Origin: Actinomycetota bacterium
GTDB lineage: Bacteria > Armatimonadota > SYMT01
Length of the DNA: 51,466 bases
Assembly: GCA_005798285.1 (NCBI GenBank)
Contig: SYKE01000016.1
Location: 1-51,466 of the forward strand
Direction: 5' to 3'
Both the position numbers and the translations under genes were made by a program. The notes beneath the pieces are model-generated. The model did not search any database. It worked only from the letters and a program-made list of their open reading frames with translations, and was not told where the DNA came from. Below, in pieces: positions 34,966-41,642 of the stretch; positions within the stretch are counted from its first letter, which is position 1; every line of letters starts with the position of its first letter.

Positions 34966-37900
34966 TCACTCCGATGCAAACGCCGCCAGCAGCATCTGCG
35001 CGGCGTGCTCCTGGTGGAACGGCTCCATCCCCTCAGGGGCGCGATCGGCAACCACGCGTCGGATCTCCTCCAGCGTGAGCGGCGGCTCCAGGTAGCCGTG
35101 ACCCTCCAACCATTCGCGTGCGGACTGCTTGGTGGTGGCGCGGATGCTCGGAAGTCGCTCGATCCGCTCGAGACAACGGGCGCCGTCCCCGCGCTCCTCT
35201 CGCACGATCTCTCGAATGCTCTCCCGGTAGGTCGGAGTCACCCAATCCGTCTTCTGGATTTGCTCCCACACCAGTCGAGGACGCTGCCGCAGCAACTCCT
35301 GACGGCAGGCTTCCAGCAACTCCAGATAGGCGCGCAGCTCCGGCGCCAGGGCGCCCAACTCCAGCAGTTCCTCGATACTCTCCACCGGTGGCAGCCTTCG
35401 ACGGACCGACGCCGGGAAAAACGCTTCGGGGTGATGGGCGCGAATGGTGGAAAGGGGGTGCGGAGATCGGACCCCCGGTGGGCGACGATAGCCGGGCAAC
35501 TCCGCCGGCGCCTCTGGCAAGAATTCAGGGTCGGGTCCGAGAGTCTTCACCTGCACCTCGGGACACAGCTCTCGGAACAGAGACACATCCTCCGGTTGGT
35601 TGGTGAACAGAATCACCTGCCGTTCGGCCGCGATCTGCACGAGCGCTTCCGCCAGAGCGCGGGACGCCTCGGGGTCCGAGACCGCCATTACCTCGTCCGC
35701 AACGATCGGAAAGTGGCGCGCGTCGACGCCGCCTTCCTGCTCCGTCAGGAGCCCGAGCCGCAGGGACAGCACCACATGCAGCCGCGTGCCGGTGCTCAGC
35801 TCGGCAAACGCTTGAGGAACGCCACGCCGCTCGTCGTAGACCTCGAGACGCCCGATCGGCGTATCGGAGTGCCGCCCAAATCGCAGGCGATAGCGCCCGC
35901 CGGTGAACCGGTCCAGATAGCCCGACGCCTCTCGGACCATGCCGGGCAGGGCATGGTCGCGCAGATTCTCATTGATGCTGAGGCGCACCTGATGGAACAT
36001 CCACTTTCGAATGTGCTCACGCCAGGCATCCGTCTGGGTGTCGGTCAGCCGCTGCAGGCGCTCATCGAGCTGGAGCGCCTCGCGGGACTGCTCGGCGCTC
36101 CGCAACTGCTCCTGGATCGTGGCAGTTTCTCTCGCCAGTTGCTCGATGTCTGAGTGCGCGAGCTCCCGTCGAGCGATACCCGCCTGTAGCTCCTCGTCGG
36201 TCACTTCATCCAGCGGTGCCCCCAACAGCGCATGGATCTCACCGCTCTCAGGCAGCCGGTGCTGCTGAAGCGCCTGCTTCAGGTCGCTCGATCTGGAGTT
36301 CAGCATCGCAAGCTCGGCCGCAGCGGCAGCACGCGCTTCCAGCCGGCTCACCCGCGCGTCCAGATCGTCGTCCGGGGGAACGCCCTGGCTTTCCAGGAAG
36401 CGGATGAGAGAATCCGAAGCCACTCGGAGCGACTCACACGCGGCGGACCATCGGCGGCAGGCTTCTCGGCGGCGAGCGAAGGCGGCCACCCACTGTCCTG
36501 CATCGAGCTCTGAGAAAGCCTCGGGCGCCGCGAAGTCGAACCGGGCGAGTTCCGTTCGCACCGCCTGGAGTCGTCGGTTGCTCCGATCCAGGGCCTCGGT
36601 TAGAACAGCACTGCGGCGTTCAACCTCCACCCGCGCCGCTTCGTACTCCCGCAGGCGACTCGCACAGGCTTCCAGCGTGAAGGGGTCCGCCAGCCGGATG
36701 CGCAGGCGCTCCGCCAGCGCGGGCCACTCCGCCTCGGGCAGCGGCTCTCGAAGGGACCGCTCGATCTCCGCCGCCATCTCGGATGCGAGTTGCAGCGTGA
36801 GCGACCCCCGCTGGCGGGTGTCATACGCGGCCAGGATCGAACGCCGATCCGGCGCCGCGCCTCGAACTTCGGCCGGAATGCGCTCCAGTAGTTCAGCAGC
36901 CCGGCTCGGGCCGAGTCGGGGCGCGCCGAATATGAACACCGCCACGGCCGCCGCCGCCACGGCCGCCACTGCGATCCACTGCCAGCCGGCCGCCCCCGCA
37001 AACGCCACCAGCACCGCGCCGCCTCCTGCGATTCCCACCAGCAGCAGCGGTCTCCGATCGATCCCGGGCGACGGCGTTTCGCACTCCAGCCACGCTTTCA
37101 GCGCATCGAGGAGTTCCGCGGACGGCGGCTCTCCGGCGGGGTGGCGGATGCGCCACTCGGCGAGGAGCCGTTCCGCAGCATCCCGCTTTCGCTGTGCCGC
37201 TTCCCGCGCATCCTCGAGCCGCAGCGCCGCGGTCGCCGCCTCCACATCGGTGGCGGTGGGCGCCGGCAGGGAATCCGGATCCTCGTGGGGCAGGAGTCGA
37301 AGGATGCCCTCGCGCAGAGTCCGAGCCTTCGCGCTCGCCTCCCGCAGCCCGTCCTCCGCACGACGGACCTCCCCCATCAACTGATCCCAGCCTCGGACCT
37401 GCGCCTCCAGTTGGCCGAGTTCGGCATCCGTCATTCGCCCCGCGGTCAGGACCGATTCGTCAAGCGCCGCACCCGGGCCGAGTTGCTTCTCAGCCTCTTC
37501 GCGGGCCTTGCGGGCATCGCACAGGGCCCGATACCGCACCTGTGCACCGTCGACCGCGCCGAGATCCTGACGCTCCAGTCCCGGATGGTCTTCGAGCAGC
37601 TCCTCTCGCGCCTTCCCGGTCTCCTCCAGCCGCCGCACCAACTCTCGATAGGCCCGGATCGACTGGAGGCGTTTCAATTCCTCTCCGGCGGCCTTCGCCT
37701 CCAGGGTGCGGCGCTCCAGATCCGGCAGTCGGGCCTCCTCCAACACCAGGCGGTCGGCACGGGCCCGCTGACTCTTGAGCTCACGGTCCAACGCATCAAA
37801 CTCAGAGACAGGTGTTGAAAGCCGCGGCGGCGTACCGGGATCGGTCGAAACGCCTTCCCCGATCACTCGCGCCAGCAGCTCGCGCTCCCCCTTCCCGAAC

Positions 37901-38217
37901 CCCTCCACGAGCGAGAGCAGGTCGAGCGAGTACTGCCTGGGATTCCCGGGGAAACCGGGGTATTCCCGATCCTTCTTCCGAACCTGCCGAGGCGTCGGGC
38001 CGCTTCCGTCGTCCACGTGACCCGCGATGATGACGTCCGGCGGCGCATCGCCGGGGTTCAGCAGCAATCCGAGCGCTCGCGCCAGCGTACTCTTTCCCGC
38101 GGCGTTCGGCGCATAAACCACGTTGAGCCCGTCGCCGAGCTCGGTGAGCGCGAGTTCCCCGCGAACAAACCCATGAAGCCCGTCCGGCGTGAGCGAGCGG
38201 ACCACGACGCGGCTCAA
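34966..38217 (-). CDS. YhaN/SbcC-like ATPase with coiled coil and central membrane hairpin
   Basis: 1083 residues. The TTG at 38217 is chosen because it overlaps the phosphoesterase stop (TTGA) and GGAGG lies five bases before it. Walker A APNAAGKST is at 36-44 (Lys42). Long coiled coils run from about 140 to 360 and 450 to 790. Between them lies a strongly hydrophobic double segment (about 385-440), as in Bacillus YhaN-type proteins and unlike the zinc hook of true SbcC/Rad50. The ATPase C-lobe follows: ELSTGTRLHVVLSLRLGL (signature) and FPIVADEVM (Walker B), near 830-890. A further helical extension of about 160 residues after that is unusual. With the upstream phosphoesterase it should form a nuclease-type DNA-end or envelope-associated complex. 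Confidence 0.85.
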   Translation of the reverse strand: MSRVVVRSLTPDGLHGFVRGELALTELGDGLNVVYAPNAAGKSTLARALGLLLNPGDAPPDVIIAGHVDDGSGPTPRQVRKKDREYPGFPGNPRQYSLDLLSLVEGFGKGERELLARVIGEGVSTDPGTPPRLSTPVSEFDALDRELKSQRARADRLVLEEARLPDLERRTLEAKAAGEELKRLQSIRAYRELVRRLEETGKAREELLEDHPGLERQDLGAVDGAQVRYRALCDARKAREEAEKQLGPGAALDESVLTAGRMTDAELGQLEAQVRGWDQLMGEVRRAEDGLREASAKARTLREGILRLLPHEDPDSLPAPTATDVEAATAALRLEDAREAAQRKRDAAERLLAEWRIRHPAGEPPSAELLDALKAWLECETPSPGIDRRPLLLVGIAGGGAVLVAFAGAAGWQWIAVAAVAAAAVAVFIFGAPRLGPSRAAELLERIPAEVRGAAPDRRSILAAYDTRQRGSLTLQLASEMAAEIERSLREPLPEAEWPALAERLRIRLADPFTLEACASRLREYEAARVEVERRSAVLTEALDRSNRRLQAVRTELARFDFAAPEAFSELDAGQWVAAFARRREACRRWSAACESLRVASDSLIRFLESQGVPPDDDLDARVSRLEARAAAAAELAMLNSRSSDLKQALQQHRLPESGEIHALLGAPLDEVTDEELQAGIARRELAHSDIEQLARETATIQEQLRSAEQSREALQLDERLQRLTDTQTDAWREHIRKWMFHQVRLSINENLRDHALPGMVREASGYLDRFTGGRYRLRFGRHSDTPIGRLEVYDERRGVPQAFAELSTGTRLHVVLSLRLGLLTEQEGGVDARHFPIVADEVMAVSDPEASRALAEALVQIAAERQVILFTNQPEDVSLFRELCPEVQVKTLGPDPEFLPEAPAELPGYRRPPGVRSPHPLSTIRAHHPEAFFPASVRRRLPPVESIEELLELGALAPELRAYLELLEACRQELLRQRPRLVWEQIQKTDWVTPTYRESIREIVREERGDGARCLERIERLPSIRATTKQSAREWLEGHGYLEPPLTLEEIRRVVADRAPEGMEPFHQEHAAQMLLAAFASE

Positions 38218-39515
38218 GCGCTCCTCCGCGCTTCCAGCACCTGCCGCCGAAGCGACGTCAGTTCCGTGCGAGCCGCCTCGATCACCATCTCTCGCAGTTG
38301 CTCCGGCGAGGGCTTCCGCGGCGCGTCCTCCCCGGTTCGAGGGAATCGTCCCAGGCTGCGGTCCCACGTCCGCTCCATCTCTCGGACTCCGTCGTCGACG
38401 AGCTGCATCACGCGAGTACGCCACTCGGGGAGAATGCGATCATCCGGCGGATCGGAGTTGAGGTTGTTCAGCGCCACCAGAAGCTGGGCCGACTCCGCCG
38501 CCACGTCTCTGCCGTTCACATCCGTCCAGGGCTCATCCCGAAGCAATCGTCGGTAGCTCAGTCGCGTCCAGGCATGGCGGCCGGTGAGATCGGTCACGCC
38601 CACCACTTCCTGGCGCGGTTCGGCGGCGTAACCCTCCAGGCGGACGCGAAGCTGCACGCTCTCCAGATGCTCGATCAGAACTCCGTCCACGCGGCTGAAC
38701 TCCTGGAAGAGTCCGTCAACCCGCCGATCCAGATCCTCGCCCTCCGACGGAACCCCCTCTTCCAGCGTGAGTACGCACTCTTCGAAGCGGACCGTGGAGA
38801 TCGGGTGGACTTCAGAGAAACGGGCCGCGCCGTCCTCCAGCGTGAGGATCCTCGCACCGTGCGCACCCCGCTCGCCCGGCCCGAAGTCGAGCGCCTGCGG
38901 CGAGCCGGGATAGAGGGCCGTGGGGGTGATCTGCCGGCCGACATGGATGTGACCCAGCACCCAGGCATCCGCCCGACCATCCAGCTCGCCGGCGGAGAGC
39001 GGATGGTACGCGGACCCCACCACGCCGACATCCCCGTGTACGAGGGCAACCCGATATCCATCATCGAGTCTCGACGGCATGTGCGGCAGCGCACTTTCCG
39101 ATTGAGTCATGCGTTCGAACGACCAGCCGCAGAGGTGGAGTGGTCCGGAACCAGTCTCAAGCAGCCCGGTTTGCCACCGCCCGCCCGCTCCGAGCAGCAG
39201 TACGCCGCTCTCCGAGGCGGCGGCACAGAAGCGGGGAAGCGCATCCCAATCATGGTTACCCGCCACCGCGGCGACGGGGATTCTCATCGCAGTGAGATCG
39301 CGGAGCCCCTGGCTAAATGCCGTTCGGGCAGCGTAGTACGAGCCGGCGCTGTCGAAGATGTCTCCGCCGAGCAACACCCCGTCCACGCGCTCCCGGATCG
39401 CCAGATCCACAATGCGCCGCCACGCCCCGGTCGTGGAGCGATCCACCGAGTCCGGGCCGTTTAGCCAGAGGCTCTGGCGACCAAGGTGCAGATCACTGGC
39501 GCAGAGAAGTCGCAT
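38214..39515 (-). CDS. SbcD/YhaO-like metallophosphoesterase (DNA exonuclease)
   Basis: 433 residues. All metal-site blocks are present: DLHLG (Asp8, His10), GGDIFD near 52, GNHDWD near 87, HGDVG near 160 and GHIHVGRQ near 190. The rest (about 220-430) is a beta-rich capping region plus helices, as in YhaO and Mre11. It overlaps the ATPase gene by four bases, so the pair is translated together, the usual arrangement of SbcDC and YhaON nucleases that process DNA ends and hairpins. YhaO-type is preferred because the partner has a membrane hairpin. Confidence 0.87.
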   Translation of the reverse strand: MRLLCASDLHLGRQSLWLNGPDSVDRSTTGAWRRIVDLAIRERVDGVLLGGDIFDSAGSYYAARTAFSQGLRDLTAMRIPVAAVAGNHDWDALPRFCAAASESGVLLLGAGGRWQTGLLETGSGPLHLCGWSFERMTQSESALPHMPSRLDDGYRVALVHGDVGVVGSAYHPLSAGELDGRADAWVLGHIHVGRQITPTALYPGSPQALDFGPGERGAHGARILTLEDGAARFSEVHPISTVRFEECVLTLEEGVPSEGEDLDRRVDGLFQEFSRVDGVLIEHLESVQLRVRLEGYAAEPRQEVVGVTDLTGRHAWTRLSYRRLLRDEPWTDVNGRDVAAESAQLLVALNNLNSDPPDDRILPEWRTRVMQLVDDGVREMERTWDRSLGRFPRTGEDAPRKPSPEQLREMVIEAARTELTSLRRQVLEARRSA

Positions 39516-40430: not shown

Positions 40431-41642
40431 CTAGGGCGGCAGAATCCCCGGAGGGATTTCCGGTCGAAGGTAGTGCGGACCGGATAGCGACGGCTCAGGG
40501 GGAATCCGCATCGAGAGAGCGTCGGTGGCTTCGATCATCGCCGTCTGGATGGGGTAGCGGCCGCGAGGAGGCGTGCGAGGATCGTACGTTGCGTCCGTCC
40601 AGGCGCGGCAGTCGGCGTGGGCTCGGAAACGGAGCAGGCGGTTCTGGGTGGTGTCGATCTCCAGTTCTCCCGCCAGTGAACCTTCATGGCCGCGATCGTT
40701 CCACTGCGGCGGGTGAGAGTCGCGCTTGGAGAAGCTGCCGGCCAGTGCGATCGTCTGGCGAGTCCCGTTGGTCCGGGTGAGGCGCCCCGTCAGACCGGGA
40801 CCCCTCAGGGCGCCGGTCTGGTAGGCCCACACCTGTCCCCGAACGTTGTCGACGATGTGGAACACGAGCAGCCGCGTCACAAGCGTACGGGGCAGCGGAA
40901 ACTCTCCGGCGGAGCCGGCAGCGCGGCGGCCGATCTCGCGAATCTCCTCGGGCATGATCCACATGAAGTCCCGGCCGGGCAGCGAGTTCCAGTCCCCTCC
41001 GTCCGCCGGCAGCGGCCGGATGCGGGTGAAGAGCTTTACGACAGCCGCGCCCGCGGGTGGCGTGGTCGGCGCCGTGAACTCAAGCGCCTGGGTGGGCGCG
41101 AAGCCACCATTCGACTGTCGGAAGAGCTGCAGCCCGAGGGCGAAGAACTGGGTCAACCTTGGGGGATAGTTGTCCCACGCCAGGCCCGCGCCCCTGCTGG
41201 AGAGGATGTAGTAGCCCTGGGTGCTGCCGCCCTGCCAGCGGGGATTCGCCTCGCGCACCACGCGGAGCCAGGAATCGCGGAACGGTCCGGCAAGCAGTCG
41301 CTCGTGGGTGAGCGCAACCGGAACATAATCTCGCTGAAGTCGCTGTACAATGCCGGGCTCGGAGAGGGCGACCCGCCCTCTTACGGCGTTGTTTCAGCCA
41401 CACCCCAGCGGATTGCCGTTCATCACCCAGGCCATGATCGGACGCCCCGAGCGGGTCGCCTCCCCAATCGCCTCTGAGAGCGACAGCTTCCAGGGGATGC
41501 TCAGCCACCGCTCTTCCTCCGGGGTGGGCAGCAGCGCATTCAGCTTGCTCTCCCACCCCGAAGCAACCACCTGGGCCGCGCCGTTCCGGCTGCCACCCGC
41601 AGTGAGCGCCAACGTCCCGCAGATCAACTCTCGACGCCGCAT
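40431..41642 (-). CDS. Probable selenoprotein: exported thioredoxin-like protein with in-frame UGA
   Basis: Read from the ATG at 41642, with GGGTGG a few bases upstream, the frame gives a signal peptide (RRRELICGTLALTAGG...), a thioredoxin-like segment (SLSEAIGEATRSGRPIMAWV, then MNGNPLGCG at 74-82) and then a TGA at 41396-41394, codon 83. The same frame continues without another stop to 40431: NNAVRGRVALSEPG, RDYVPVALTHERL and 320 codons in all. With Sec at 83 the protein has 403 residues and a C81-G-U83 motif at the place where thioredoxins have CxxC. A second domain (about 190-400) with VDNVRGQVWAYQTG and one Cys (ADCRAW) follows; I do not recognise it. The hairpin at 41381-41363 supports Sec insertion. 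Alternatives are a pseudogene or a sequencing error. Confidence 0.75.
41363..41381 (-). promoter_or_regulatory. Candidate bacterial SECIS hairpin
   Basis: On the minus strand, 12 bases after the UGA, AGAGGGCG pairs perfectly with CGCCCTCT (8 bp) around the loop GGU. The loop starts 20 bases after the UGA. Bacterial SECIS elements lie directly after the UGA, with a G early in the apical loop and a loop U, both contacted by SelB; the minimal fdhF hairpin of E. coli starts about 11 bases after its UGA. All of these hold here. The hairpin also codes for protein, as bacterial SECIS elements must. Confidence 0.7.

Follow-up and report, generated by a model that had tools for sequence, protein, structure and literature searches.

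The question raised by this locus was whether two minus-strand frames separated by a lone TGA represent two genes, a broken gene or a single gene that is translated through its stop codon. In the window, by which we mean the whole stretch of 51,466 nucleotides analysed, minus-strand frame 41642-40431 was interrupted only by one TGA, at codon 83 (41396-41394), and the next possible start after it, a GTG at 41261, followed 44 further codons (84-127). The preliminary description had taken the two pieces given by an ORF lister for one gene split by this TGA, and this was confirmed. It is very highly probable that 41642-40431 is one gene for a thioredoxin-like selenoprotein, predicted to be exported and to carry selenocysteine (Sec) at codon 83; judged from the sequence, the apparent split almost certainly reflects one gene inserting selenocysteine at the TGA. 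The features concerned are as follows.

40431..41642, minus strand: whole predicted selenoprotein gene, ATG to TAG, 403 residues, with the TGA as codon 83.
41394..41396, minus strand: in-frame TGA, putative Sec residue 83, motif PLGCGU-NNA; of 109 aligned stretches with a residue at this column, 92 have TGA.
41363..41381, minus strand: SECIS-like hairpin with an 8-bp stem, loop GGU and 20 nt from UGA to loop, within the bSECIS constraints.

A pattern scan with the window protein, which covered one genome per species in 84,980 species and detects close relatives only, yielded 18 pattern matches and one confirmed relative, L008, which was 64% identical, homologous over nearly the whole length and had a TGA at the same codon. 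With L008 as the reference for dN/dS and the window gene split into three segments at the TGA and at codon 127/128, dN and dS were 0.36 and 1.47 for codons 1-82, 0.18 and 1.74 for codons 84-127, and 0.28 and 1.31 for codons 128-403. The gene is under purifying selection before and after the TGA, dN/dS being well below 1 on both sides. Codons 84-127 were the best conserved segment (33 of 44 identical to L008) and had the lowest dN of the three; it is this segment, which a standard gene call would omit, that is most constrained, and the earlier statement that these codons look like protein was borne out. The same segment bears on the possibility of two genes or re-initiation, that is, an 82-residue peptide plus a separate protein starting at GTG 41261. 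Each frame is indeed open alone, but the intervening codons are those best conserved and account for roughly one third of the thioredoxin-like domain, and no purine-rich ribosome site was seen before 41261 when the sequence was judged by eye, in agreement with the preliminary description. Two separate genes are thus extremely improbable here.

The window protein was also searched for in 61 genomes, giving 11 matches in 9 of them (own genome included), each match containing an in-frame TGA. These 11 matches were built into a profile that was run against 291 genomes of the phylum, 113 of which had a match at E 0.001 or better. The Sec column was read in those listed matches that reached E 8e-9, together with a few weaker ones, near-identical stretches being merged; 109 aligned stretches had a residue there (92 TGA, 12 Cys, 2 Ser, 2 Asp and 1 Glu) and 11 further segments were gapped at the column. 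The count of 92 in 109 is valid for the stronger matches; outside it are 32 weaker listed matches (E 2.9e-8 to 4.6e-5), three of them with an in-frame TGA, as well as further unlisted ones, and weaker Cys forms may exist. Cys at the Sec column was found in nine rows of another clade, in L093, and in L130 and L131, which are generic thioredoxins; Ser was found in L106 and L112, and Asp in L113 and L125. The Glu row and one TGA row were frameshifted pieces of a single gene, L124 of genome G072, the Glu being a frameshift artefact. L107 and L124 (G072) are two more copies that appear frameshifted, either decayed genes or assembly errors. One TGA row, L128 (G018:C87), resembled another thioredoxin type, as did L130 and L131; with its in-frame TGA and the motif NPGUGGC, it seems to be a separate thioredoxin-like protein. 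An alignment of homologues had been proposed as a check, and its outcome, TGA at the column of codon 83 in most stretches and Cys in another clade, provides two marks of bacterial selenoproteins, a conserved in-frame UGA and a Sec/Cys pair.

From the TGA rows, 55 sequences were joined with the window protein in an alignment of 56 Sec forms, hand-picked from a list of 71 already thinned at 70% identity. Identity to the window protein ranged from 16 to 66%, and the only invariant columns were Trp51 and the Sec column. These figures bear on the reading of the TGA as a nonsense mutation or a sequencing or assembly error in a normal gene now decayed, for which the fragmented draft genome and the two pieces seen by the ORF lister might speak. 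Since the TGA is conserved down to 16% identity, and lies at the same codon in L008 and in the same column of the stretches counted above, and since purifying selection persists past it, sequencing error, which had been raised as a possible source of the TGA, and decay are both excluded; we assign this reading a negligible probability.

If the TGA is instead a selenocysteine codon, the genome should be able to decode it, and a search for selA, selB, selC and selD had been suggested. All four were present, as expected for a selenoprotein gene. The tRNA-Sec (selC; E 1.2e-12, called tRNA-SeC by ARAGORN) was adjacent to SelD (E 3e-106) and SelA (E 2e-142) on contig C20, and SelB (E 4e-109) was located on contig C239; that these genes and the window gene are on different contigs is accounted for by the draft state of the genome, which is 69% complete in 326 contigs. 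It was also noticed that SelD of this genome (L023, on contig C20) is itself interrupted by an in-frame TGA, within CGGUASK, which gives the genome a second Sec codon; the table of a review (PMC13188914) lists this UxxK form. An ARAGORN tmRNA call at L001 1335-1595 overlapped tRNA-SeC and tRNA-Ala and is probably a false call spanning both tRNAs. An in-frame TGA was also contained in a SelB match of another genome (G290:C31:2536-3663).

In this lineage UGA might also encode some other amino acid, as it does in codes 4 and 25, which would likewise keep the frame open past the TGA. However, UGA is not simply reassigned: of eight window genes checked, five have TGA as their stop codon. In addition, each TGA-bearing row has a single TGA in its matched stretch, and it falls in one column, and the genome holds the full Sec machinery. 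Reassignment is accordingly most improbable, and decoding as selenocysteine is the reading kept below.

Across the phylum, SelB was over the cut-off in 141 of 291 genomes, namely in 45 of 51 genomes with Sec forms of the family versus 96 of 240 others (Fisher p 1e-10, not corrected for kinship; genome lists compiled by hand). The six Sec-form genomes with no SelB over the cut-off were 68-90% complete, and four of them had a tRNA-Sec at E 3.6e-13 or better; in the other two, G078 and G108, neither SelB nor tRNA-Sec was over the cut-off. Ten genomes had only non-Sec forms. Seven of these had no SelB over the cut-off, and their best tRNA-Sec was at E 8.7e-9 or worse; G146 (49.1 bits) and G112 (47.2 bits) were just over the Rfam cut-off of 47, in a score range also attained by second or third matches in other genomes. 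In the remaining three (G142, G143 and G145) both SelB and tRNA-Sec were present, the latter at E 2.6e-13 or better.

The hairpin starts 12 bases after the TGA and consists of AGAGGGCG (41381-41374), GGT (41373-41371) and CGCCCTCT (41370-41363), which together form a perfect stem of 8 bp around the loop GGU, just as in the preliminary description. The bSECIS constraints given in a figure legend of the review (PMC13188914, Fig. 2) are a loop of 3-9 nt, a stem of 4-16 bp and a G in the first two loop bases, and the same source gives a spacing of 16-37 nt and an MFE of -7.5 or below. The window hairpin lies within all of them, with a loop of 3 nt (GGU), a stem of 8 bp, a spacing of 20 nt and -13.8 kcal/mol for the hairpin alone. 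The folding energy of the whole region was unremarkable (z -0.80, 41 of 200 shuffles as good), also relative to synonymous shuffles (z -0.97, 14.5% as good), and Rfam gave no match over the window at the gathering threshold. In a scan that admitted only hairpins of SECIS shape at SECIS spacing, adopted after the whole-region energy gave no significance, -13.8 kcal/mol was reached in 2% of 60 synonymous shuffles and at 3.6% of 277 other codons of the window gene. With whole-region folding ordinary, although a hairpin of this form is rarer, the SECIS evidence at the single window site is only suggestive by itself, and the case rests on the relatives.

Hairpins were counted in 90 of the 92 TGA rows, leaving out L124 (frameshifted) and L128 (other thioredoxin type). 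The constrained hairpin had a mean of -9.0 kcal/mol in these Sec forms versus -3.6 in synonymous shuffles, and the same scan gave a mean of -2.9 kcal/mol at other codons of the same 90 genes. A hairpin at -7.5 kcal/mol or below was present in 68 of 90. The scan admitted loops from 12 nt onwards, more loosely than the published minimum of 16; when both -7.5 kcal/mol and a spacing of 16-37 nt are required, the count is 55 of 90. At most 5% of 60 shuffles did as well in 54 of 90 Sec forms, and for L008 by itself 27% of synonymous shuffles did so. With the MFE of the whole 45 nt, only 6 of 90 Sec forms reached p 0.05. Of the five clades represented by at least six distinct sequences, four showed far more pairing in fixed register than slid controls did; in the LWD/QWD clade the excess was unclear (69 of 91 cells versus 63 of 91 for one slide). 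Covariation inside the clades was weak: the fixed-register stems vary little, with compensatory changes in 4 of 42 base pairs in six clades, a count from which the seventh clade, GRCUGGA, was left out. In clade CTUNNGVRGRQ the distance from the UGA to the best hairpin was mostly only 12 nt, which falls short of the published range. Among the non-Sec homologues, for which 14 of 17 rows were used (L124, L130 and L131 left out), the hairpin mean was -1.3 kcal/mol and none of the 14 reached -7.5.

These comparisons bear on a programmed UGA read-through that is independent of Sec and inserts some other residue, which is conceivable insofar as Sec itself is deduced here from sequence. SelB and the family co-occur, however, the site is Cys in homologues of another clade, and the non-Sec homologues lack the hairpin, all of which makes such a read-through exceedingly unlikely. 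With the conserved TGA, the hairpin and the sel genes, the designation as a probable selenoprotein gene was supported, insertion of Sec being what they predict. By this reading, SelB and Sec-tRNA(Sec) would bind the hairpin 12 nt past the UGA, resulting in selenocysteine at codon 83.

The protein itself can be divided into the following parts.

41571..41642, minus strand: putative N-terminal export signal, twin-arginine-like (MRRRELICGTLALTAGG...GAAQ), recognised by eye; L008 starts alike.
41115..41525, minus strand: thioredoxin-like domain, about residues 40-176, from a match of the family profile to PDB 3f9u.
40434..41045, minus strand: C-terminal domain, about residues 200-403, aligned in L008 and several relatives.

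The N-terminus resembles a twin-arginine or Sec signal, and the window protein is probably exported. By itself the protein gave no Pfam match, the C-terminal domain included. The family profile matched 3f9u at E 1.5e-4 with 56 rows and at 0.048 with 11 rows, as expected for a thioredoxin fold, and AGR3 (3ph9) weakly at E 0.046; Thioredoxin_7 was found at E 0.01 in 7 of 56 members (best 2.1e-5), the window protein not being one of them. An AlphaFold2 model from a two-sequence alignment had a pLDDT of 41; its order of helices and strands fits a thioredoxin-like domain, the model being otherwise unusable, and the C-terminal domain is probably strand-rich according to strands in this low-confidence model. 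The Sec aligned to the first Cys of CVNC in 3f9u, and in all 90 Sec forms the position of the second Cys of CxxC was Gly or Ala. A Cys near the Sec was present in 87 of 90, at -2 (CxU) in 64 and at -1 (CU) in 23, and three had neither. Sec83 would thus take the place of the first, nucleophilic Cys of the thioredoxin CxxC, and Cys81, two residues upstream, is probably its selenenylsulfide partner. Fold and motif suggest that the protein is most likely an extracytoplasmic thiol/selenol oxidoreductase or a peroxide or disulfide reductase.

Several known families were compared. NF041383 (VPGUxxT type 2, OS_HP5 in the review table), the nearest model, is also a thioredoxin-like selenoprotein, with weak similarity to window protein residues 49-112; at a threshold of E 1 it matched 7 of 11 members, the best at 2.4e-7, and at 0.01 it matched 5 of 56, the best at 4.9e-7. 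Membership was rejected, as the window protein scored 12.8 bits versus a cut-off of 275, and NF041383 was over its cut-off in none of the 291 phylum genomes, though 187 had some weak match. The motifs also differ, PLGCGU in the window protein versus VPGU in NF041383, and the window protein adds a domain of about 200 residues. The thioredoxin-like Sec.1 family (PF13192), of which a row in the review table (PMC13188914) gives a CxU motif, is likewise thioredoxin-like and comes closest by motif; in a domain search, PF13192 was absent from the window protein (E 10), the 11 members (E 1) and the 56 members (E 0.01). Thioredoxin_7/DsbH-like thioredoxins (PF13899 and PF03190; 3f9u and AGR3 3ph9) share the fold by profile match, but the window family has Sec for Cys, Gly or Ala at the second Cys and a long C-terminal domain. 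The motif of TsoC (NF045708), entered as NEPxGxxU in the review table (PMC13188914), and that of the window protein can both be written as PxGxxU; no NF045708 match was found among the 56 members (E 0.01) or for the window protein (E 10). Eukaryotic SELENOF, as described in PMC9304195, also has Cys-x-Sec in a thioredoxin-like domain, a likeness of motif.

No Pfam or NCBIfam model describes the family, as searched with the window protein and the 11 and 56 members, and no entry in the review's table of 119 families (PMC13188914) fits, judged by the names, domains and motifs given there. The available portions of the deep-Sep paper (PMC12013277) and of PMC4807772 held no mention of such a family, and a literature search with motif strings, whose coverage did not extend to Haft and Tolstoy 2025 (which defines TsoC), gave no relevant paper. 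The window gene is apparently one member of a large family of thioredoxin-like selenoproteins, unnamed so far. With neither a dedicated Pfam or NCBIfam model nor a recognisable entry in the 119-family table, the family probably has its genes annotated as broken fragments.

Sec forms were present in 51 of 291 phylum genomes, with up to six copies per genome, as in G064 (L043, L058, L063, L079, L082 and L129). With the window protein as query, viral contigs gave one pattern match and no relative, and none was found in plasmids with one member (L012) as query. A tree of 97 rows was made by a quick search with midpoint rooting, its root and long branches being uncertain; L124, L128, L130, L131, L085, L129 and rows under 120 residues (including L125) were left out. 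One branch held 12 rows (9 Cys and 3 Sec) and the main branch 85 (81 Sec, 2 Ser, 1 Asp and 1 Cys). The nine Cys rows grouped together, as did the two Ser rows with the Asp row, and the single Cys of the main branch, L093, was a long branch. In the main clade, Cys is thus nearly never found at the Sec site, and lost Sec has mostly become Ser or Asp. The Ser and Asp forms L106, L112 and L125 were in genomes with no SelB over the cut-off, and L113 (G145) was in one with SelB.

We hold the chances to be about even that this is an ancient, multi-copy, exported thioredoxin-like family of one phylum with almost absolute dependence on Sec. If so, it would perform chemistry in which sulfur cannot replace selenium and would have a role in maintaining Sec, and this dependence would explain why methods based on Cys/Sec pairs and standard gene callers have missed it. 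The few Cys forms and the four Ser or Asp forms, three of them in genomes with no SelB over the cut-off, constitute a natural test of selenium versus sulfur.

Gene neighbours were compared at 22 loci; no cluster spanned more than three loci, and none was conserved beyond close species. Four of the five three-locus clusters came from one genus, and the fifth was antisense to the family gene by coordinates. L019 (G001:C198), a member whose motif is GRCUGGA, carries a long fused extension at its C-terminus, in a frame of 836 residues. In the window, minus-strand positions 34966-38424 hold a 1152-codon ORF with no Pfam match, near minus-strand genes for a DUF5122 propeller protein, a sulfatase and a YfhO-like protein.
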